DNA from: Candidatus Kapaibacterium sp.
GTDB lineage: Bacteria > Bacteroidota > Ignavibacteria > Kapaibacteriales > JAEUSM01
Direction of reading: 5' to 3'
DNA length: 64,000 bases
NCBI GenBank assembly: GCA_016788785.1
Contig: JAEUSM010000009.1
Location: 186,001-250,000 of the forward strand
Positions 5,483 through 51,963 of this stretch are shown one piece after another (position 1 is the stretch's first letter; every line of letters begins with the position of its first letter). Under the pieces are notes generated by a model, which had not been told where the DNA came from, did not search any database, and worked only from the letters and a program-made list of their open reading frames with translations. Made by a program: the position numbers and the translations under genes.

Positions 5483-5518
5483 TATTCCTAATAAGCAAAT
5501 AGACGTTCTTTATAAGCT

Positions 5519-5609
5519 CCAAGCCCCGTACATCTAATTCAAGCCCAACCCTGCCAGGTCCTAGCGGAAGCAACAGTAAGTTTCGAGTTAGAGTGTACGG
5601 TAAGCTTGG
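5519..5609 (+). ncRNA. ffs: Signal recognition particle RNA (4.5S-like, small bacterial type)
   Basis: The region folds into one long hairpin. CCAAGC (5519-5524) pairs with GCTTGG (5604-5609), and CCGTACATCTAATTC pairs, with G-U wobbles, with GAGTTAGAGTGTACGG. The apical part carries the conserved SRP domain IV: CCAGGTCC (5554-5561), a TAGC tetraloop, and GGAAGCAAC (5566-5574), which is the Ffh-binding region. The usual tetraloop is GGAA; TAGC is a variant. A run of nine T follows immediately (5610-5618), giving a Rho-independent end. It is more GC-rich than its surroundings. It binds Ffh to target membrane proteins. Its 3' part overlaps, antisense, the last codons of the glycosyltransferase gene. 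Confidence 0.88.
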
Positions 5610-6790
5610 TTTTTTTTTGCTTTCAAAAAATCAATAGCTTTCTTCATAACTGCATCCCAACCATACTGCTCTTTAATATAGATTCGTTGATTTGATAATT
5701 CATTTTCAGTTACGGGGTTTTGCAACAGATGAATCACTTCTTTTGCAAAATCAGTGGGTTTATCTTGTATTCGTATACTCTTTCCTCTAAAACTAATTCC
5801 CTCAATTCCTATTGTAGTTGTAACCATAGGTGTTGATGCAGCTAAAGCCTCCAAAATTTTAATTCGAATGCCACTTCCACTTAATAACGGTACTACCATT
5901 ACGGAATACGTTTGAAAAAACTCATTCGCATCAGGTACCATCCCATGGCATAGTATTCCGTTGTTATCACATAAGTTCAATAACTCTTTCGAGGGACTTT
6001 TTCCACCAATATGAAACTCAGATTGTGGAAGTATTTCTGTAATTATTGGGTATACATTTTCAATAAACCATTCTAAACCTTCAACATTCGGAGCCCAATC
6101 TAAAGAGCCAAAGAAAAAGTATGTTAGGGGTTTTCTTTGAAGAGAAAGTGGAGGAAAACGTTGTAAATCGACACACGTTGGAATAGCTTCAATGGGAGTG
6201 GTTACTCCCAGGGAAAGAAATGTTTCTTTATCGATTTCGGAAACTGTCATTACTCCCTGAACAAGTTTCATCAATAATAGTTCATATTGTTGTAACTGTT
6301 TGGCAGATATTCGATAAAAATGTGATTTTAACCAACTCTCAGTTTGTGATAGACGTTGGTGAATAGCAAACTCAACATTATGAGTTCGTAAAAAAATATC
6401 AATTGTTGAGGACCATTCGCGAAGGTCAAGAAGATATTCACCTAAAAATGGAGAATCTATAATCACAGTATCTATATTATGAGCAATAATCACTTCTTTC
6501 AGTAATTTCGTAAACTGTTTATCATAAAATCGCTGAACAATATAAGGTGTAAACTGGAAGAGCGATAGTAACAATGAAAATGGATTGATACTTGTATCAA
6601 TTGTATGAGTATAGACTGTCCCAAAAGATTGTAAAACTTCTGGATTTTGAAAGTGTTTTTTTGTGTTTAAAGTAGCAATTGTAATATTGCCATATTGCTT
6701 CGATAGATGTTGAACAAAGGAATAATGACCAATAGCTCCACCATCAGTTAGTGGAAAGGGGATACGAGGTAAGACAACTAAAATATTCAT
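5588..6790 (-). CDS. Glycosyltransferase, GT4 family (GT-B fold)
   Basis: The 400-residue protein opens with a Rossmann-like MNILVVLPRIPFPLTDGG segment, which includes the glycine-rich acceptor-side loop of GT4 enzymes. Its second half holds a GSLDWAPNVEG segment and a donor-binding region with PLLSGSGIRIKILEALAASTPMVTT, including the conserved Glu of the GT4 EX7E-like motif. These enzymes move a nucleotide-activated sugar to a lipid-linked or polysaccharide acceptor at the cytoplasmic face. It is the last gene of the motor/flhF operon (12 bases after the membrane protein gene). This placement could reflect flagellin or envelope glycosylation, but that is inference. The last codons are antisense to the SRP RNA terminator. 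Confidence 0.85.
   Translation of the reverse strand: MNILVVLPRIPFPLTDGGAIGHYSFVQHLSKQYGNITIATLNTKKHFQNPEVLQSFGTVYTHTIDTSINPFSLLLSLFQFTPYIVQRFYDKQFTKLLKEVIIAHNIDTVIIDSPFLGEYLLDLREWSSTIDIFLRTHNVEFAIHQRLSQTESWLKSHFYRISAKQLQQYELLLMKLVQGVMTVSEIDKETFLSLGVTTPIEAIPTCVDLQRFPPLSLQRKPLTYFFFGSLDWAPNVEGLEWFIENVYPIITEILPQSEFHIGGKSPSKELLNLCDNNGILCHGMVPDANEFFQTYSVMVVPLLSGSGIRIKILEALAASTPMVTTTIGIEGISFRGKSIRIQDKPTDFAKEVIHLLQNPVTENELSNQRIYIKEQYGWDAVMKKAIDFLKAKKNQAYRTL
5604..5618 (+). terminator. Intrinsic end of the SRP RNA
   Basis: The 3' arm of the closing stem (GCTTGG, 5604-5609) is followed directly by nine T residues (5610-5618). The RNA's own terminal helix therefore doubles as a terminator hairpin. The T run is read on the other strand as Lys codons near the end of the glycosyltransferase. 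Confidence 0.7.
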
Positions 6791-21836: not shown

Positions 21837-21882
21837 ATTTTGTGTTAATTAGGGAACTTTTTTTCTCTTAAAACAGTATTAG

Positions 21883-21915
21883 TGGTGTATTACAGCAACG
21901 TAATACACCATTTTT
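21883..21915 (+). terminator. Intrinsic terminator after the lipoprotein gene
   Basis: TGGTGTATTAC (21883-21893) and GTAATACACCA (21900-21910) form a perfect 11-bp stem with a 6-base loop, followed by five T. It also shows that upstream in-frame starts for the next gene before about 21915 are unlikely. Confidence 0.85.
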
Positions 21916-21989
21916 ATATTATTGGGTATAGGAAAACGTCTATAGCCCAAATGAATAAGCATATATTAATTTTTTATAAAGGTTCTCAA

Positions 21990-24900
21990 ATGAGAGTACT
22001 CTTCCGATTAGTTCTGTTGGTAATAGTTACCTTGGTAATTAGTTCAACTTCAGTTCTGTCACAAGTTTTTACAATAGGTGGGAATAGTGGTCCGAATCCA
22101 CTAACTACGACAACTACTGTCGATCGTGCCTCAAATCCTTACATAGGTGGTATTGGTCTGGGGAACAATGCTTCTCGTCATTTGTTTTTATACAGAGCAT
22201 CTGAGTTAAAAATGAATGGTGTTCCTAATGGTGTTATTAAAAGCATTAGGTTTAATGTTTCTGGTACTGTTTTAGGTGGTAATTGGAATACTATTTCTGG
22301 CGGTGAAACCAGAATTCTTTCCGTACGTGTTCGCCAAGTACCAAGAACAGTAAACAATCTTTCTGATTTCGATGCTACACCTGAAGGAACAAGTTTTCCA
22401 ATTGTGTTCCAAGACAATAACTTCGATGCAAATCCAACCTATAATGGTGGTACAGCAGGATGGCAAAACTATGTTGTTGGTCAAGGTGTAGATGGCGGTG
22501 TAGCAACCGCAGGGTTTGCGAATGGTATCGTTTGGAATGGTGATAGCTCATTAGTTATCGAAGTTCATACACGTAATACTATCCAAAGAACATTTTCACT
22601 TTGGTCAGCTCAATTACCATTATTAGTTTCTAATCCATTTCCTCAAAACACTACTGTCGTTAGTGCAGGTAACAATTTTGGTTTGACAAATTCTCGTCAA
22701 AACCCACTCAATTCTACACAATCCTCTAATATTCGTCCTGTTTTACAATTGGAAATGCAACAATTAGGAGTTGCTGATATTTTTCCAAGTGACTCAATTG
22801 GTGCAAGAGGTGTATTGACGAATATTGGTACGTCCGCAACTGCTCCTCCTGTATATGACGCACTTCCAGAAGATGCAATAGCAGATGGTCGTTCACCATA
22901 TATGAGAGTCCGTGTTATCAATGGTCAACCATATAGAATTCGTTTCAGAATCGAAGCAATGGGTAATTATACTCAAAACCCTGGTCCAGCACCGGGTGGT
23001 GGAGCTGGTTTTTCTGTAACAAATAATCAAGTAATTTATACAACTGGTGCTTCTACTTCTATTCCTGATCAATATGTATTGTGGCAAAAAACTGCTGCAT
23101 CTGCAACGGAGATTGTAGACATTATGGATATTATTGGTGGTGGCGCTGCAAATTGGTCGCGTGTTCCAGATTTACCAGCCGTTGTCAATCCAACTCCAGT
23201 AAATTTCGGTTCAGGTAGAGCATTTGTTAAATTAGGTACTCCAACTATTGGTGCTATGGATTTACGTTCAGTTGTTAACGGAGCGGATCCATCTGAAGGA
23301 AATATTCCTGCTGGAAGATATCGTGTTGTTGGATATGTAGAGGTTCCAAATGTTGGTGGTGTGAATGGTGCAACGTTCAGAGATTCGTTGGTTCGCGAAT
23401 TCACTGTTGCCTTCCAAAATGATATTGCGGGACTTCGCCAAGAGGTTCCACGTGCTATCACTTCTGCTGATAGTATTGCTTATCCAAAAGGGTCAACGTT
23501 AGAATCACGTGCCATTTTCGCGAATATGGGATTAGATTCTGTTGGTCGTTATAGAGCATACACTGAAGTTTGGCTTATCAAAGCTGGTGGTGATTCAATT
23601 GCCTTCCGTGATTCATCTAACTGGTATTTTAGAACTGATAATAATAATCTCCGTTGGAGAAATACAACAGTAGATACTGTTGAATTTTCTATTCCAGGAT
23701 CAGCAGTTAATCAAGCAGGTCGCTATATAATGAAAACTTGGGTGCAAATGCGTGATTCCATCACCTCTGCTCCAATTGACCAACAAAGCGTCAATGATAC
23801 TCTTATTACTCAATTTAGAGTGAGAAATGCCAATGATGTAGAAGCAGTTTTAGCGACTTCATTGATTCGTCCTTTTGGAACTGGTGCGGTTAATCGTCCA
23901 ATTGCTCCACAAGCATTGTTCCAAAACAATGGTTCTAATCCTGCAACTTCTTCAAATGTTCGTATGATTATCACCAACTCAAGTAATGTGGAGGTCTACA
24001 ATCAAACATCTGCAGTTACTATTCCAACTGGAAATGGTTTGTACTCACAAGCAATTGCAAATTGGAGTGCTTTATGGACTCCAACTGCTCCAGGCACTTA
24101 CACTGTTAGAGTGATTTCTCAAGCACCTCTAGATGATAATGCTGCAAATAATGAAGTTTCTACTTCTGTAACTATTCTTGCTCCATTATCTGGAACCTAC
24201 ACAATTGGTTCAACTGTACCTGGTCCTAATAATTTTTCAACATTACAAGCTGCAATTGATGAATTGTTCTTCCGTGGAATTGGTGCTAATGTACGATTCG
24301 AGTTTACTGATGACAATCGTAATGCAAATCCAAGCTCTGACCCGTATATAGTTGGTGATACAAATATCTTTGCTCCAGCATTAGATTTGCGTTCAAAAAT
24401 TTTAGGTGCAAATAATTTTACCATTACTTTTGCTCCTCATTCTTCAATTGCTTCTGTTCCACGTGCTGCGGTAATTCGTTTACGTACTGGAATGGGTGTT
24501 GGTATTGCTTTTGGTCAAGCATATACACCATTGAATAGAAATGCTATTCAACGTGATTTGCCAACAAATGCAAATAAATACTATAATTCCTTCGGTAATT
24601 TCATCTTTGATGGTGGTAATAACAGAACTATTGCTTTTGATTTAATTGCTTCTGATTCACTTCCTAATAATGCTGGACATCGTTCTGCATTGTATTTAGG
24701 GAGAGGTTCTCAAAACATTACAATTCAAAACTGTTTTGTTTCTACAAGTTCTTCTTCTCACAAAGATTCATTACCAAATCTTGCAAATTATACTGAAGGT
24801 AAAGTACTCTTTGACCAACCTGATATTCGATTGATTCAAACTGGACCTGGAACAGCTGGTTACACCTCGTATACTGCCGGTATCGTTTCTCGTGTAACTA

Positions 24901-27900
24901 TGCCTCGTGTTGATTCATCTGGATTGAATATTCCTGGTATGGACACGCTCTCAAATAGTAACAACAAATTTATCAATAACGAAATTACAAATTTCGCGTA
25001 TGGTATTGTTTCTATGGGGTTAGATTACCTTCAAAAAAGTAATGGTGGTGCTTGGACTCGTTATTATAACATCAATAACATCTTTAGAAATAACTACATC
25101 CATGGTTGTTACACTGGTGGTATTATTGTTGGTAATGAAGAAAATGCTCTTATTGAAGGAAATAGAATCGATACTATTGCACGTCCAACATCTGATATTG
25201 GGTGGTATTATGTGATAAATACAGATCCATTCTTTACGCAATTGTCGAGTCCTGCATTGTTCGATAGATTTACGACTGGTATCAAAGCTGGTGGTGATAC
25301 GTTGACTGGAGTTTTGAATCTCCGTATTATTAACAATGAAGTAAGTAATATTGCTTCTGAATCCCATGCAACTGGTATTCATGTTGAGCAACAACAAACA
25401 ATGTATTCATCTCCGAATACAACACTTCCAGTGGAAGCTGAGCAAACTTACATTGCAAATAACATTGTTTGGAATGTATTGGGTGCAAATTCTGCAATGT
25501 CTGGAGCAAATGCACATTTGGCAATTCGTGGAGGAATTCTTGTTTCAACTCGTCGTGAGTATTGGAACCCATCACAAATTCAGTCATTCATTAACCCAAC
25601 TCCGCAAATGGGTGGAGCTTCGTATTTTACTGAACGTGATACTATCGTTAACAACACTGTTATTTCTGGTAATGATGCATTTAGTAATGAAAGCCCATTA
25701 TTTGGTATTGGTGTAATGCAATCTCTTCGTCCAGTGGTTATGAATAACGCCGTTTCGGTCAATGATGCAACTATCAATTCGGGAGTTCAATCAATTAATG
25801 CTGCATTGCATTATGTTGGTATTTCTCCTGCAGATACTACAAATGGATTGCTTTCAAATTTCAACGCATTCTTTACGCCAGTTGGTGGGTCCATTGCAAG
25901 TTTTGTTGAAACAGATTTCAATTCTGTATTGTTGGATGCATATCCTTCAAATGCGAATTTGAATGAATATAAAACCATTCGTCAGTGGAGATATTGGACT
26001 GGTCAAGATTGGAACTCAATTTTAGGTGACTTTATTAGTGATCATTCATTTACTGGCAATCCAATCAGAGCTCGTATCAAAACTGCTCCATTCCCAACTA
26101 ACTCTGTGTTAAACAATACTGGCTTCCGTTTAACCAGTTTAACAACAGATATCAAAGGTCAAACTCGTGGATTCGGTAACGATCCGTATGATATCGGTGC
26201 AGATGAATTTAATGGAATTCGTTTTGCTAATGAGTTCGAAGTTGCCGAAATCCTTTCTCCAGCTTCTTACAAAGCAGAAAGTGGTCAATTTAGCGATGCT
26301 GAACATATAATGACACCGTTACCATTGGCATTGTCTGCACGTATTCGCAATACAGGTGGATCGAATGTAACAAGTGTTCCAGTTCGCTTTAGAATGCAAA
26401 TTGAAACAGCATCTTCGAATAATACCAATCCTCCAGTTCGTACATATAGCACCAATTTTGTGGTAGATACTACTGTATTTGTTGCTATCAATGCAGGTCA
26501 ATCGCGTGATGTTTCTGTTGCATTACCAAATTTCAAACCGTTAACATATGCTGATCCTGATGCGTCGATGAGAGCATACTTCACTCCGTCACGTTTTGAC
26601 TCGAGTTATGTTGGTCTTCCTTTAAGAAGAAAATCGAAGATGTTTCATAGTGTAACTCCTCGCTATCAAATGATTGTTTCATTACCAGCGGATGATTACT
26701 TTGCGAACAACCAACAATCAAAAGAAATTCGTTTCTTTGTTATGAAAGGTGGTTTACAAGTTCTTGCTTCGGTAACGAATATTGGAATCAACACACCTAT
26801 TGGAAATCCTGGAAGATTAAATTCTGATTCATTATTGAGAAATCTTGATACCCTTGGTTTAGGATTTAGAATTGACTCTCTTCGTACTCCAACACAACGT
26901 CAAGATTACGATGAGTTTGACAGAGCATCATGGGAACCTCGTGGTGTGAATTACAAACATTATCGTACTATTTTCTGGGCTCACGGTGATAATGCACTTT
27001 CTCGTTTCGAACGTCGCGATATTCGTAATTATTTACAAAGCGGTACTCAATTGGACAAAAAACAATTTATGGCTGCTTCTCAAGAATGGATAGTTCGTCA
27101 TGATCAACGTGGTGCTACTCGTGACAAAGAGTTTATGGAGCAATTCTTTCGTGCTGATACGCTTGGAACAACGTTACCTCAACGTACTCCTCGTCCTGTT
27201 GGTGGATATGAAGATAGACCTGTGATTGGACGTGGTTTGAATTTCAGCGTTGTCGATACAACTGATATCACAGGTGTTGCTGGTGACCCTGTAACGCCTG
27301 GTAACTTGATGCCAGCAATCATGAGAACATATACTGATGCTAATTCAACAGGAATTGTTGTACCAGCGTACAGATATGAATCTCCAACGTTGTTACGTGA
27401 TACTTCAATGGGTACAGCGTATGCTTCATTGACATTCAATGCAATTTATCTTGGTACTGATTGGAGACACTTCCGCAAATCTGGTGCAGGGGCTAATTTC
27501 AATAGAGAATCTGGTGTTGTTCGTTTACTTCGTGGAGGTATTGACTTCTTCGATCGTAATGGTGGATGGATTGTTCCAGTTGAGTTAGTAAACTTTACTG
27601 CAACGCCATTTGCAACGTCTGTTGATATCAACTGGTTGACAGCTCAGGAAGTCAATAGTGGATATTTTGAAGTTGAACGTGCTTCTATCAATGAAGGTGT
27701 TCGTTCTAATTTCGTTCGACTTGCATCAGTTGCTGCTGCAGGTAATAGTCAAACAGCGAAAAACTATGGATTTATTGATGAAACAGTTGAAAGAGGAAAC
27801 ACCTACATCTACCGTTTACGTATAGTAGACAAAGATGGTTCTTTTGCGTATAGTAATGAACAAGCCGTTTCCTTTGGTACAAGTGCAGATCAATTGTGGT

Positions 27901-28151
27901 TAGGTGATGTTCTTCCGTCTCCATTCCAATCAACTGCTACTGTGTCAATGATGATTCCAACGACTGATGTGGCAACGTTACGATTGATGGATATGACTGG
28001 TAAAACAATTGCTACATTCTTGAATGGTCAAACTCCAGCAGGTGTACAACAATTTAGAATTGATGCAACAAATCTTCCATCAGGTGTATATACATTGGTA
28101 TTACAACAAAATGGAATCACTGCTTCAAAAACAGTTCAAATCCTTCGTTAA
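21990..28151 (+). CDS. Giant type IX secretion cargo protein with beta-helix region
   Basis: I place the start at ATG 21990, preceded by AAAGG. This gives about 2053 residues and a clear signal peptide (MRVLFRLVLLVIVTLVISSTSVLS); the frame is open further upstream but crosses a terminator. The protein contains CARDB/Ig-like adhesion domains (about 480-760), a right-handed parallel beta-helix region (about 850-1300, repeated NNxI and GNxI turns) and more Ig-like domains. A region near 1590-1850 (YRTIFWAHGDNALSRFERRDI) resembles a Rossmann-type glutamine-amidotransferase-like fold. It ends in a Por sorting domain (PSGVYTLVLQQNG...KTVQILR). It is expected at the cell surface, perhaps binding or cutting a polysaccharide; the ligand is unknown. 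Confidence 0.9.
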   Translation: MRVLFRLVLLVIVTLVISSTSVLSQVFTIGGNSGPNPLTTTTTVDRASNPYIGGIGLGNNASRHLFLYRASELKMNGVPNGVIKSIRFNVSGTVLGGNWNTISGGETRILSVRVRQVPRTVNNLSDFDATPEGTSFPIVFQDNNFDANPTYNGGTAGWQNYVVGQGVDGGVATAGFANGIVWNGDSSLVIEVHTRNTIQRTFSLWSAQLPLLVSNPFPQNTTVVSAGNNFGLTNSRQNPLNSTQSSNIRPVLQLEMQQLGVADIFPSDSIGARGVLTNIGTSATAPPVYDALPEDAIADGRSPYMRVRVINGQPYRIRFRIEAMGNYTQNPGPAPGGGAGFSVTNNQVIYTTGASTSIPDQYVLWQKTAASATEIVDIMDIIGGGAANWSRVPDLPAVVNPTPVNFGSGRAFVKLGTPTIGAMDLRSVVNGADPSEGNIPAGRYRVVGYVEVPNVGGVNGATFRDSLVREFTVAFQNDIAGLRQEVPRAITSADSIAYPKGSTLESRAIFANMGLDSVGRYRAYTEVWLIKAGGDSIAFRDSSNWYFRTDNNNLRWRNTTVDTVEFSIPGSAVNQAGRYIMKTWVQMRDSITSAPIDQQSVNDTLITQFRVRNANDVEAVLATSLIRPFGTGAVNRPIAPQALFQNNGSNPATSSNVRMIITNSSNVEVYNQTSAVTIPTGNGLYSQAIANWSALWTPTAPGTYTVRVISQAPLDDNAANNEVSTSVTILAPLSGTYTIGSTVPGPNNFSTLQAAIDELFFRGIGANVRFEFTDDNRNANPSSDPYIVGDTNIFAPALDLRSKILGANNFTITFAPHSSIASVPRAAVIRLRTGMGVGIAFGQAYTPLNRNAIQRDLPTNANKYYNSFGNFIFDGGNNRTIAFDLIASDSLPNNAGHRSALYLGRGSQNITIQNCFVSTSSSSHKDSLPNLANYTEGKVLFDQPDIRLIQTGPGTAGYTSYTAGIVSRVTMPRVDSSGLNIPGMDTLSNSNNKFINNEITNFAYGIVSMGLDYLQKSNGGAWTRYYNINNIFRNNYIHGCYTGGIIVGNEENALIEGNRIDTIARPTSDIGWYYVINTDPFFTQLSSPALFDRFTTGIKAGGDTLTGVLNLRIINNEVSNIASESHATGIHVEQQQTMYSSPNTTLPVEAEQTYIANNIVWNVLGANSAMSGANAHLAIRGGILVSTRREYWNPSQIQSFINPTPQMGGASYFTERDTIVNNTVISGNDAFSNESPLFGIGVMQSLRPVVMNNAVSVNDATINSGVQSINAALHYVGISPADTTNGLLSNFNAFFTPVGGSIASFVETDFNSVLLDAYPSNANLNEYKTIRQWRYWTGQDWNSILGDFISDHSFTGNPIRARIKTAPFPTNSVLNNTGFRLTSLTTDIKGQTRGFGNDPYDIGADEFNGIRFANEFEVAEILSPASYKAESGQFSDAEHIMTPLPLALSARIRNTGGSNVTSVPVRFRMQIETASSNNTNPPVRTYSTNFVVDTTVFVAINAGQSRDVSVALPNFKPLTYADPDASMRAYFTPSRFDSSYVGLPLRRKSKMFHSVTPRYQMIVSLPADDYFANNQQSKEIRFFVMKGGLQVLASVTNIGINTPIGNPGRLNSDSLLRNLDTLGLGFRIDSLRTPTQRQDYDEFDRASWEPRGVNYKHYRTIFWAHGDNALSRFERRDIRNYLQSGTQLDKKQFMAASQEWIVRHDQRGATRDKEFMEQFFRADTLGTTLPQRTPRPVGGYEDRPVIGRGLNFSVVDTTDITGVAGDPVTPGNLMPAIMRTYTDANSTGIVVPAYRYESPTLLRDTSMGTAYASLTFNAIYLGTDWRHFRKSGAGANFNRESGVVRLLRGGIDFFDRNGGWIVPVELVNFTATPFATSVDINWLTAQEVNSGYFEVERASINEGVRSNFVRLASVAAAGNSQTAKNYGFIDETVERGNTYIYRLRIVDKDGSFAYSNEQAVSFGTSADQLWLGDVLPSPFQSTATVSMMIPTTDVATLRLMDMTGKTIATFLNGQTPAGVQQFRIDATNLPSGVYTLVLQQNGITASKTVQILR

Positions 28152-47190: not shown

Positions 47191-50100
47191 ATGAAGAACA
47201 TTCATTCAGTACTCTCAGCATTGATTGTTTTCTTACTACTGCCATTGGTAGTAGTAGCACAAACGAATCCAGTGCCACAAAACTTGCCCTACAGCCAAAA
47301 CTTTAATGCATTGGCTCATGCGTCGGCAACCTATCCTGCTGGTTGGCAAGGATGGGAAATTACAGGTCCTTTAGCAGGAGCATTTCTTACCGCTGCTCCA
47401 GCTTTAGATTTGGCTCTTACTCCATCTGCAACTGCCGTCAACACTGCCGACGGTGTTTACAACTTTGATGGTAAAATCGGTATGTTAAGTGCTACAGGTA
47501 GTGATGTTTCAACATTAGTTGCTGCATTCAATACGACTGCACAAAGCAACATCAAAGTAAATTTCTCTATTTCTACTATTCGCAATCCGTATGACGGTGG
47601 TGGAAACACTATCCGTCAAGCAGTAGAATTACAGTATCGAGTTGGTACTGTGGGAGCATTTACTTCGGTTCCAAGTGGTTTTTATGAATCACCAAATGAT
47701 ACTGTGTATAGAAATAACAATATTACACAAGTAACAGGAACTATTGCATTGTTTGAAAAAAATTATGCAGTATTGTTGCCTCCTGCTTGTGACAATCAAC
47801 CAATTGTTCAAATTCGTTGGGTTGTTCGCTCTGAAAGTGGTGTTGGTGCTGATCCAAGTTTTGCTTTGGATAATGTCACTGTTGCTTCCCCTAACCCTAC
47901 AGTTCCGTTCTTCCAAGCAATTGGTTTGAACCAAGACTTTTCAGCTTTAGCATATGGTTCTACTATTGTTCCTACAGGGTATAAAATTATTCAATTACAG
48001 GGTGTTCCTGGTAATACGTTTAAAAATACAACTGTTGCTCGTGATACTACGATGATTGCTACATCAGATGCTACAAATACTAACGCTGGTGGACACAATT
48101 ATAATGGAAAAATCGGGTTTTTAAATGGTGCAACTGCTGATTTGGGTATTGCAACTGCAATTAGTACAATAAACAAAAATAATGTAACAGTATCCTATGA
48201 TATCAGTACTATTCGCAATCCGTATGATGGCTTGAATCAACGAATTTTAGAAGTTGAATTACAATATCGTATTAGCCAAGACACAGGTGCGTTTATATCT
48301 GTTCCTGCAAACGCATATCAATTGCCGAATGATACGTTATACAAAACAAATATAGCAAATCAAACAACTGCAGTTACTACTCCTCAACAAGAGAAAACGT
48401 ATGTTGTAGTTCTTCCAGATGCTTGTAACAATCAACCGTATGTACAATTACGTTGGGTTACTCGTACTGTTAGTGGTGCTGGAAATATGCCGTCTATCGC
48501 CTTAGATAATATCGTAATCGAAGGTAAACCAACAGTACAGGCTTCAGCAGCAACGTTCGCAAACTATACTGGTACAACTGTTCAAATTAATTGGACAAAT
48601 GGTAATGGAGAAAGAAGATTAGTATTTGTTTCTGAAAATACACCTGTTACATTTTCTCCAACAGATAACGTAACATATACTGGAGCGAATGCAAATATTA
48701 CCTTAGCTACTCCATATGGTGGAGCGAATTATTTAGTGTACTCAAACACAGGTAATTCTGTTACTGTAACTAACTTAAATCCGACATCAGTTTATTATGT
48801 TGCAATTTACGAACATAATAATGAAAATATCGTTGTACCTTCTCGAATTTTAGAGAAATATACTGTTCCATCTGCAGTTCAATCTGTAACTGGTGTAAGA
48901 ATTTCTCGTATTCAGGGTAAAAGACATACATCACCATTCAATGGTCAGATTGTTACTGCTATTGGTGGAGTCGTAACTGCTTTAGATGGTCCAAATGCAT
49001 TCTATATGCAAGACCCAACAGGAGATGGAAATGATACTACTTCTGAAGCTATCTATGTCAATGCAACTGCCCATGGATTGTTAGTGAATGAGTCAGTTGT
49101 CGTATATGGAACTGTTTCAGAAGTTCGCCAATCTGGTGACGGAGTTAACCTAAGTAACCTAACTGTTACTACACTCAATGCAACAGCGATTGATAATCTT
49201 GGACCAGTTACTCCAGTAGCATTTACTACTATTGGAACCGGTGGAAGAGTTATTCCAACAACAACTATTGCTTCTGCAGCTCCAAACGGTAGTGTTGAAG
49301 ATCTAACGTACTTCTTGAATCCTGTCGGAAACGGATTAGATTTCTTCGAATCTTTAGAAGGAATGAGAGTTTCTGTTCCAAATCCAGTCGTTGTTGGGCC
49401 AACAAGAAATAATATCGTAACTGTTGTTTCTGATTTTGGAAATAACGCTTCATTGCGTTCACTCAGAGGTGGATTGGTTCCATCTGCAACAGATGCTAAC
49501 CCTGAAAGAATTTTCGTTTCTGATAGCATTCTCAATGGAGGTGCAATAGCTTCAGTTCCATTGTATGAAGTTCGTGATACCTTACCAACACTACAAGGTA
49601 TCGTTGACTATAATTCTGGCAAATACTTCGTGTATACAACAATGGTTGCACCAAGATTGCCGGTTACTCCAACGACTTCTCAATTGAAAGCAGATACTTT
49701 GTCTTTGAATATTGATACTAATCACGTTCATATTGGACAAATTACGTTAGAGAATTTTGATGGAGTATCTATTCCAACAAATAACTCTGTTGCACAAAAA
49801 ATTATCTTCAATATGAAGGCTCCAGATATCATTGCAGTACATAATATTGCTGATAATAGTGGTGCTGCTAATGACGGTATCGTTGGTGCAAATACGACTA
49901 TCAATGCATTAATTACAGCATTGAGTAACTATGGTATCGATTATGGGTTTGCTCAAGTTAATCCAGTAAATAATGCTGATGGTGGACCACTTGGTTCTAA
50001 CCTACGTACAGTATTACTTTACAGATTAGATAGAATTGGATTATCTGGAACTCCAGGTGGTTCAAATATCTCTAACGCAGTTCAAACTGTTGCAGGAAGA

Positions 50101-51963
50101 CCAAATTTACAATTCAACCCTGGTAGAATTGCTCCTACATCTCCTATTTTGGCTGGAAGTAGAAAACCATTTGCAGCTCAGTTTACGTTCAAAGGAAGAA
50201 ATCTTTTTGTCTTAACTAATTATTTTGACACTGATCTTCCAAACGAAACTAAATATGGTGTATTCCAACCTGCAAGAGACTCTATCGCACAACGCAGAGC
50301 TGCTCAGGCATTGATTGTACAAAATTTTGCTCAAAACATCTTTAATGTGTTTAGTGCTTCAAATGTTTTAGTACTATCTAACTTTAATGATGCTCCGTTT
50401 GCACAATCAGTTACAAATGCGAAAGGAACAAACCTTTTCAATCTTACTGATTCATTACCTGCAAATAACAGATATACAATTGTTAGAAATGGAAATTCTT
50501 ATGCGACAGATCAGATTTTAGCTTCGGCAAATTTAGTTTCTCAAGCATTCAAAGCAATTGCTGTTCAGCATTTCTCTGCAGAATATGATCAACCAACTGC
50601 TACAGCCAACGATGGTATCGTATCTCGTTTCGAAATGTTAAGTTCGTATAATATTACAGGTACTGTACTGTATAATGGAAACCCTCAAGCAGGTGTGAAA
50701 ATTAAATTAACAGGTGGTGCAACTGACTCTGTTGTAACTGGACCTGCTGGTACATTTGCATTTAACAATTTAGATGCTGTTAAATCTTATACAATTACAC
50801 CATCATTAGCTGGATATGGATACAATAATGCTCCAAGAGTAATTCCATCATTGGAATCAAATACTGTTGTGAACTTTATTGGTACTGAATCTCCAGCTGA
50901 TTTACGTGGAAAAGTATTATTGAATGATCTTCCATTTACGGAAGTAATGGTGTACTTGAATGGAACATCTGGAAATACTACTATTGTTGATTCTATGTTA
51001 ACTGATTCTAATGGAGATTATGCCTTTACTGGTATTCCTGGATTGGGTGCATATACAGTTCGTGCTGAAAGATTAGGATATACATTTGTTCCGGGTGTTC
51101 ATACTATTGACACATTATCTAAATATCCTTCAACTACTCGTTATAACTTCAACTCTTTAGTTACTCAATATACTATTAGTGGTAGAGTAATAAATAGTGA
51201 AGGTAATGGTATATCAAATATCAGAGTATCAATTAGTGGTGGAGTTTCTAATTTCATCAATACTGATGCAACTGGAAACTACTCATTTGGTGTTCCTGCA
51301 TTTGGTAACTATACTGTAACAGTATTTGGAATTGGATATTCGTTTACTCCACAATCATATTCATTTTCCAATGTTACAAGCAGTTCTGCTAACCAAAATT
51401 TTGTGGGAAGTCTTCTTTCTTACGGAATTAATGGTACTGTAACATTAAATGGTCAACCTGAAGAAGGTGTTACTTTACGCTTAACTGGTACTGCAACAAG
51501 CAATACCAATACAGCCGCAAATGGAACATATACATTTGCAAACCTTCCAGCATTTGGTGTATATACTATCAGACCAGAAAAAACAGGAAGAGTATTTAGT
51601 CCTTCTGAATGGTCAACTAACTTGTTCTTAGAAAATGCAATTGTGAATTTCCAAGCATTTGATGTTACAAGTGTGAACGAATCAACAACTCCAAAAGGAT
51701 ATACTCCTCTTGCTGTTACTATTGAGCCAAATCCTGCAAATGAGAAAACAATCCTTTCATTTGATATGGTTCAAGATGGAATGGTTCGTATTGATATCTA
51801 TGATGCGAATGGTTCATTGATGTCAAAAGTTGCCGATGGATTCTATAGTGTCGGTTCTCATTCAGTACAACCAGTTGTAAAATCTTTTGCAAATGGTACT
51901 TACTATGTAAGAATCACACATCCGAACGGAACAACGACTACTCCAATTGTTATCGTTCGATAA
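47191..51963 (+). CDS. Type IX secretion cargo protein: degenerate extracellular nuclease (ExeM/NucH-like)
   Basis: The 1590-residue protein opens with a signal peptide (to about 23). It has a tandem duplicated N-terminal domain (about 30-235 and 240-445, each containing the motif STIRNPYDG). An Fn3-like region follows, then an ExeM-type OB-like segment (about 566-790) with an exonuclease-endonuclease-phosphatase (EEP) domain (about 870-1070). EEP motifs are altered: the usual E-containing motif is VHNIAD (883-888), the N-H motif is TNYFDT (1009-1014) and GDxN is SNFND (1063-1067). Catalysis is unlikely. Four carboxypeptidase-regulatory-like Ig repeats (about 1150-1490) and a Por sorting domain close it. 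Expected at the cell surface. Confidence 0.85.
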   Translation: MKNIHSVLSALIVFLLLPLVVVAQTNPVPQNLPYSQNFNALAHASATYPAGWQGWEITGPLAGAFLTAAPALDLALTPSATAVNTADGVYNFDGKIGMLSATGSDVSTLVAAFNTTAQSNIKVNFSISTIRNPYDGGGNTIRQAVELQYRVGTVGAFTSVPSGFYESPNDTVYRNNNITQVTGTIALFEKNYAVLLPPACDNQPIVQIRWVVRSESGVGADPSFALDNVTVASPNPTVPFFQAIGLNQDFSALAYGSTIVPTGYKIIQLQGVPGNTFKNTTVARDTTMIATSDATNTNAGGHNYNGKIGFLNGATADLGIATAISTINKNNVTVSYDISTIRNPYDGLNQRILEVELQYRISQDTGAFISVPANAYQLPNDTLYKTNIANQTTAVTTPQQEKTYVVVLPDACNNQPYVQLRWVTRTVSGAGNMPSIALDNIVIEGKPTVQASAATFANYTGTTVQINWTNGNGERRLVFVSENTPVTFSPTDNVTYTGANANITLATPYGGANYLVYSNTGNSVTVTNLNPTSVYYVAIYEHNNENIVVPSRILEKYTVPSAVQSVTGVRISRIQGKRHTSPFNGQIVTAIGGVVTALDGPNAFYMQDPTGDGNDTTSEAIYVNATAHGLLVNESVVVYGTVSEVRQSGDGVNLSNLTVTTLNATAIDNLGPVTPVAFTTIGTGGRVIPTTTIASAAPNGSVEDLTYFLNPVGNGLDFFESLEGMRVSVPNPVVVGPTRNNIVTVVSDFGNNASLRSLRGGLVPSATDANPERIFVSDSILNGGAIASVPLYEVRDTLPTLQGIVDYNSGKYFVYTTMVAPRLPVTPTTSQLKADTLSLNIDTNHVHIGQITLENFDGVSIPTNNSVAQKIIFNMKAPDIIAVHNIADNSGAANDGIVGANTTINALITALSNYGIDYGFAQVNPVNNADGGPLGSNLRTVLLYRLDRIGLSGTPGGSNISNAVQTVAGRPNLQFNPGRIAPTSPILAGSRKPFAAQFTFKGRNLFVLTNYFDTDLPNETKYGVFQPARDSIAQRRAAQALIVQNFAQNIFNVFSASNVLVLSNFNDAPFAQSVTNAKGTNLFNLTDSLPANNRYTIVRNGNSYATDQILASANLVSQAFKAIAVQHFSAEYDQPTATANDGIVSRFEMLSSYNITGTVLYNGNPQAGVKIKLTGGATDSVVTGPAGTFAFNNLDAVKSYTITPSLAGYGYNNAPRVIPSLESNTVVNFIGTESPADLRGKVLLNDLPFTEVMVYLNGTSGNTTIVDSMLTDSNGDYAFTGIPGLGAYTVRAERLGYTFVPGVHTIDTLSKYPSTTRYNFNSLVTQYTISGRVINSEGNGISNIRVSISGGVSNFINTDATGNYSFGVPAFGNYTVTVFGIGYSFTPQSYSFSNVTSSSANQNFVGSLLSYGINGTVTLNGQPEEGVTLRLTGTATSNTNTAANGTYTFANLPAFGVYTIRPEKTGRVFSPSEWSTNLFLENAIVNFQAFDVTSVNESTTPKGYTPLAVTIEPNPANEKTILSFDMVQDGMVRIDIYDANGSLMSKVADGFYSVGSHSVQPVVKSFANGTYYVRITHPNGTTTTPIVIVR

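Follow-up and report, generated by a model that had tools for sequence, protein, structure and literature searches.

An ExeM-type core without its cleaving residues in a putative T9SS-exported surface protein of Candidatus Kapaibacterium

The window, a 64,000-nt stretch of a Candidatus Kapaibacterium sp. genome (contig JAEUSM010000009.1), contains at 47191-51963 on the + strand a complete gene for a predicted T9SS-secreted mosaic surface protein. An ORF check confirmed the position and length given in a preliminary description: the frame runs through 1590 codons without an internal stop. The 1590-aa product starts with a signal-peptide-like segment, followed by a ~210-aa module present twice (residues 25-236 and 237-447; 47263-48531), the OB-containing half of an ExeM/YhcR-type core (48880-49725), an EEP domain (49726-50640), four CarboxypepD_reg β-sandwich domains (50641-51720), and a T9SS type A C-terminal sorting domain (51727-51960), all on the + strand. 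The domain order proposed earlier, an ExeM-type segment followed by EEP, Ig repeats and a Por sorting domain, holds for the core, EEP domain and tail, but the "Ig repeats" are four stretches of PF13620 (carboxypeptidase-regulatory-like; E 1.4e-28 for the protein). A promoter/terminator scan gave results no better than shuffled sequence. Elsewhere, the window encodes another very large T9SS-tailed protein (21882-28151, 2089 aa, with a weak β-helix match) and the bacterial small SRP RNA (5517-5614; RF00169, 53.4 bits).

The sorting tail scores 27.8 bits with TIGR04183 (cut-off 23) and 34.9 bits in the genome-wide scan; the Pfam model gives 26.2 bits against a cut-off of 27. With ~145 type A sorting tails in 3.0 Mb, the genome has a very large set of T9SS cargo, and it encodes a homolog of SprA (SprA_N, E 9.7e-38), the component of the T9SS machinery that was searched. 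The abundance of other tails together with the SprA homolog makes T9SS export of the 1590-aa protein credible, and the protein presumably resides at the cell surface.

The N-terminal tandem repeat spans residues 25-447, and its two copies are 43% identical. This unnamed module, found at 47263-48531 and also in L126, L131 and other loci, is matched in 45 of 122 Kapaibacteriales genomes, mostly in proteins of ~1270-1450 aa. The module-bearing proteins that were read out lack an EEP domain; they carry other repeats, HYR and galactose-binding-like domains among them. The module recurs in other T9SS proteins of Kapaibacteriales and is not part of ExeM. Its predicted structure is unusable (pLDDT 36.6), and the similarity of one module relative to Reelin subrepeat B is weak and below the cut-off.

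The stretch of residues 569-1150 aligns over its full length with OB+EEP nucleases of the ExeM type. PDB entries 9sf8/9sf9, EEP domain-containing and ExeM-like, match the window protein across the entire OB+EEP core (E 6e-59 over residues 569-1118); a literature search found no publication on the 9sf8 structure. The catalytic motifs YNIENF, LIEVQD, NHLNS and GDFND are present in 9sf8, whereas none is intact in the window protein. ExeM of Shewanella oneidensis likewise combines a YhcR/OB-like part with EEP and is extracellular, but it is an active Ca/Mg-dependent nuclease with an LTD and a GlyGly-CTERM anchor, and has E521, D822, H642 and H823 in place (PMC6085458). To collect relatives, we searched one genome per species with two patterns that avoid the active site, F[YF]E[ST]LE[GA]M and [DSE]GG[QEP][PL]G[GSA]N[IL]R, so that the set is not biased toward intact sites. 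They yielded 80 further genome loci, confirmed by tblastn, at 32-40% identity. The alignment comprises 86 relatives, 83 with intact motifs and three without. The window protein scores 57 bits with NF033681, under the curated cut-off of 300, as do intact relatives in the same subfamily (166 and 206 bits).

The nearest intact relatives are ~38-41% identical and scattered over Cyanobacteriota, Spirosomataceae, Pseudomonadota and Actinomycetota. Among them, a T9SS-tailed ExeM of Fibrella rubiginis (Bacteroidota; L022, 1413 aa; ~39-41% identity) shares both the ExeM core and the T9SS tail with the window protein, but its catalytic residues are intact, and it has its own LTD and CBM3 and lacks the CarboxypepD_reg stalk and the N-terminal tandem repeat. 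A protein search found an ExeM-like core in one of 123 Kapaibacteriales genomes and in none of the others, and no second such core (paralog) in that genome. No close orthologs were present in the collections searched; viral contigs gave one partial hit only, and a plasmid search returned 14 records, all distant. The gene most likely represents an imported ExeM core in a local T9SS chassis. A separate small EEP protein of 293 aa is encoded in the same genome (L002, G000:C6:72960-73688); its catalytic motifs are all intact and it has a likely signal segment, which makes it a candidate for an active secreted nuclease or phosphatase.

The preliminary description singled out three altered motifs, VHNIAD, TNYFDT and SNFND. 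These sit exactly at the positions of LEEIQD, NHFNSK and GDLND in the relatives, and the losses extend beyond them to the first-motif Asn, the Asp-His of SDH, a near-invariant Lys and the His of a DH pair. Seven residues are lost together at positions with 99-100% conservation among the 83 intact relatives: N289T, E322N, H448Y, K452D, D501N, D576A and H577N (domain numbering; positions in the full protein are higher by 563). ITLEN replaces FNVEN, with Thr (49744-49746) at an Asn found in 100% of the intact relatives; Asn (49843-49845) replaces the equally invariant metal-binding Glu, the counterpart of ExeM E521 (PMC6085458); Tyr (50221-50223) and Asn (50380-50382) replace the NH-motif His and the GDxN Asp, each 100% conserved; and TANDG stands for SDHDP, with Ala-Asn (50605-50610) at an Asp-His pair in which both residues are 100% conserved and which corresponds to ExeM D822 and H823 (PMC6085458). 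All five replacements lie on the + strand. K452D reflects a change from SK to TD at the near-invariant Lys. DH is also changed to DQ, at a His that, like a few neighboring positions, is less conserved in the relatives. Given such conservation at every key residue that is replaced (99-100%), chance does not account for these losses.

Intact catalytic Glu, His and Asp at other places in the domain would have refuted the preliminary reading, but we found none: the alignment is continuous, each motif is flanked by conserved anchors, and Thr, Asn, Tyr, Asn, Ala and Asn occupy the catalytic columns. The window protein does retain N374, R376, N447, N503 and D544. From APE1, TDP2 and DNase I, we take positions of this type to make contact with the scissile phosphate or to keep the site ordered, and the lost positions to hold the metal and activate water. 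For ExeM, metal binding has been predicted for E521 and D822, and phosphate binding for H642, N699 and H823 (PMC6085458); of these five, only the Asn has a counterpart in the window protein. The alignment supports a nuclease-like core that has lost nearly all of its cutting residues and is predicted to be catalytically dead.

The proposal that the nuclease fold is kept agrees with a confident AlphaFold2 model (38 sequences; pLDDT 88.8, pTM 0.88), which in structural comparison resembles TDP2 (Z 23.8) and DNase I (Z 23.5), with an rmsd of 2.7-2.8 over ~231 residues. Of the columns with 95% conservation or more in relatives, 54 of 65 non-catalytic ones but 3 of 10 catalytic ones are kept in the window protein (Fisher p=0.0012, for column sets chosen post hoc, after the finding was known). 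The EEP half has a net charge of +0.33 per 100 residues, as compared to a mean of -5.98 in intact relatives (sd 3.12, max 0.32). This would make it easier for a polyanion to approach, but as a marker of DNA binding this near-neutrality is suggestive only, since it arises from acids lost rather than bases gained. As the whole core still has a charge of -7, DNA affinity is not assured.

The gene could be an incipient pseudogene after a relaxed, recent loss of function, and its occurrence in one genome only and its very long branch are compatible with this. We consider decay very unlikely because the frame has no stops, the scaffold is conserved, G+C by codon position is like that of neighboring genes, and neutral simulation behaves differently. 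In 200 runs carried to six catalytic changes, no run had fewer than 5 stops (mean 21), and on average 21% of the conserved columns survived, as compared to 0 stops and 57 of 69 conserved columns kept in the real domain. The earlier view that the gene is not a decayed pseudogene agrees with these results, and a protein in decay has a very low probability as the explanation of the locus. New D/E/H residues (H321, D450, D452 and E456) adjoin the old motifs in sequence, and the predicted fold is intact, both in favor of an enzyme rebuilt for a different phosphoesterase activity. To our knowledge, active EEP enzymes have the metal Glu, NH His, GDxN Asp and SDH Asp-His in common, and all of these are lost together here; we regard an altered enzyme as improbable, with only a remote chance that the new residues form a rebuilt metal site.

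Three Actinomadura homologs (L048, A. terrae; L083, A. hibisca; and L088, A. sp. 7K507) also carry the ExeM core with lost active-site residues. As in the window protein, the first Asn and the Glu are lost in all three, here by changes to G or R and to G, respectively. Two of the three carry more losses; L083 retains the NH His and GDxN. The replacement residues differ from those of the window protein and T9SS is absent. Their dN/dS among themselves (0.43-0.49) is only slightly higher than in intact actinobacterial pairs (0.36-0.41), and the trio is still under purifying selection. The differing replacements suggest that active-site loss in Actinomadura was separate from that in the window protein. 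A single ancient origin of dead ExeM in the Kapaibacteriales lineage and Actinomadura, which would concern origin only and is compatible with our main explanation, is not rejected when the joint clade is put to an AU test on an alignment stripped of the catalytic columns (p=0.18), and in a quick full tree the joint constraint scored above the free search. The window protein (P0002) sits on a long branch of 2.75 substitutions per column, and with the quick tree outscored by its own constraint tree we discarded its placement as unreliable. Shared positions are replaced differently (N to T vs G/R, E to N vs G, H to Y vs Q or kept), and the trio is closer to Streptomyces/Kitasatospora homologs (50-54% identity) than to P0002 (35-36%); both count against a common origin, which we consider highly improbable.

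Our preferred explanation, to which we assign a probability of roughly 0.58, is a T9SS-exported ExeM-type pseudonuclease whose fold and phosphate contacts are kept and whose core, probably acquired laterally, is a selected non-catalytic module that grips nucleic acid or polyphosphate. The OB+EEP core would have lost metal binding and acid/base catalysis while keeping its fold and phosphate-contacting residues, and would have been spliced after lateral transfer into a local T9SS chassis consisting of the N-terminal tandem repeat, the CarboxypepD_reg stalk and the sorting tail. Selection in this lineage would then have maintained the dead core as a non-catalytic module. Its OB+EEP groove, nearly neutral rather than acidic and lacking the cleaving residues, may grip extracellular DNA/RNA or another polyphosphate, and the polyanion would be held at the cell surface by what may be an adhesin or a matrix anchor. 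In the main rival, the dead core is a structural remnant within a modular T9SS adhesin; it does not bind nucleic acid and serves only as a rigid spacer or to mediate protein-protein interactions. We think this unlikely but deserving of serious weight: the mosaic architecture with stalk-like repeats, the long branch of P0002 and the slightly acidic character of the whole core are all consistent with a spacer, but a pure spacer would have no need of N374/R376, N447, N503 and D544, which are retained. Because these phosphate-cradle residues are kept and negative charge has been lost, we favor nucleic-acid binding, and the dead core is probably used to bind DNA or another polyanion without cleaving it. 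A precedent is provided by the fungal pseudonucleases Ssd1/Dis3L2, in which a nuclease fold lost its active site repeatedly and was retained for binding (PMC8097288); however, these have the unrelated RNase II fold and bind RNA inside the cell.

No paper describing a secreted bacterial EEP protein that is catalytically dead came up in a search of open-licence papers, and within Kapaibacteriales the dead ExeM-type core is known from one genome. The core illustrates how an automatic "endonuclease" annotation can mislead. Extracellular nucleases are commonly taken to be degraders of eDNA; if selected and secreted, the dead version would be the opposite tool, one for capture and not for cutting. 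We advance only tentatively, as a possibility that is still doubtful, the broader idea that secreted ExeM-type nucleases have repeatedly turned into surface proteins that do not cleave extracellular nucleic acid but hold on to it, by which an anti-matrix enzyme may have become a component of the matrix.
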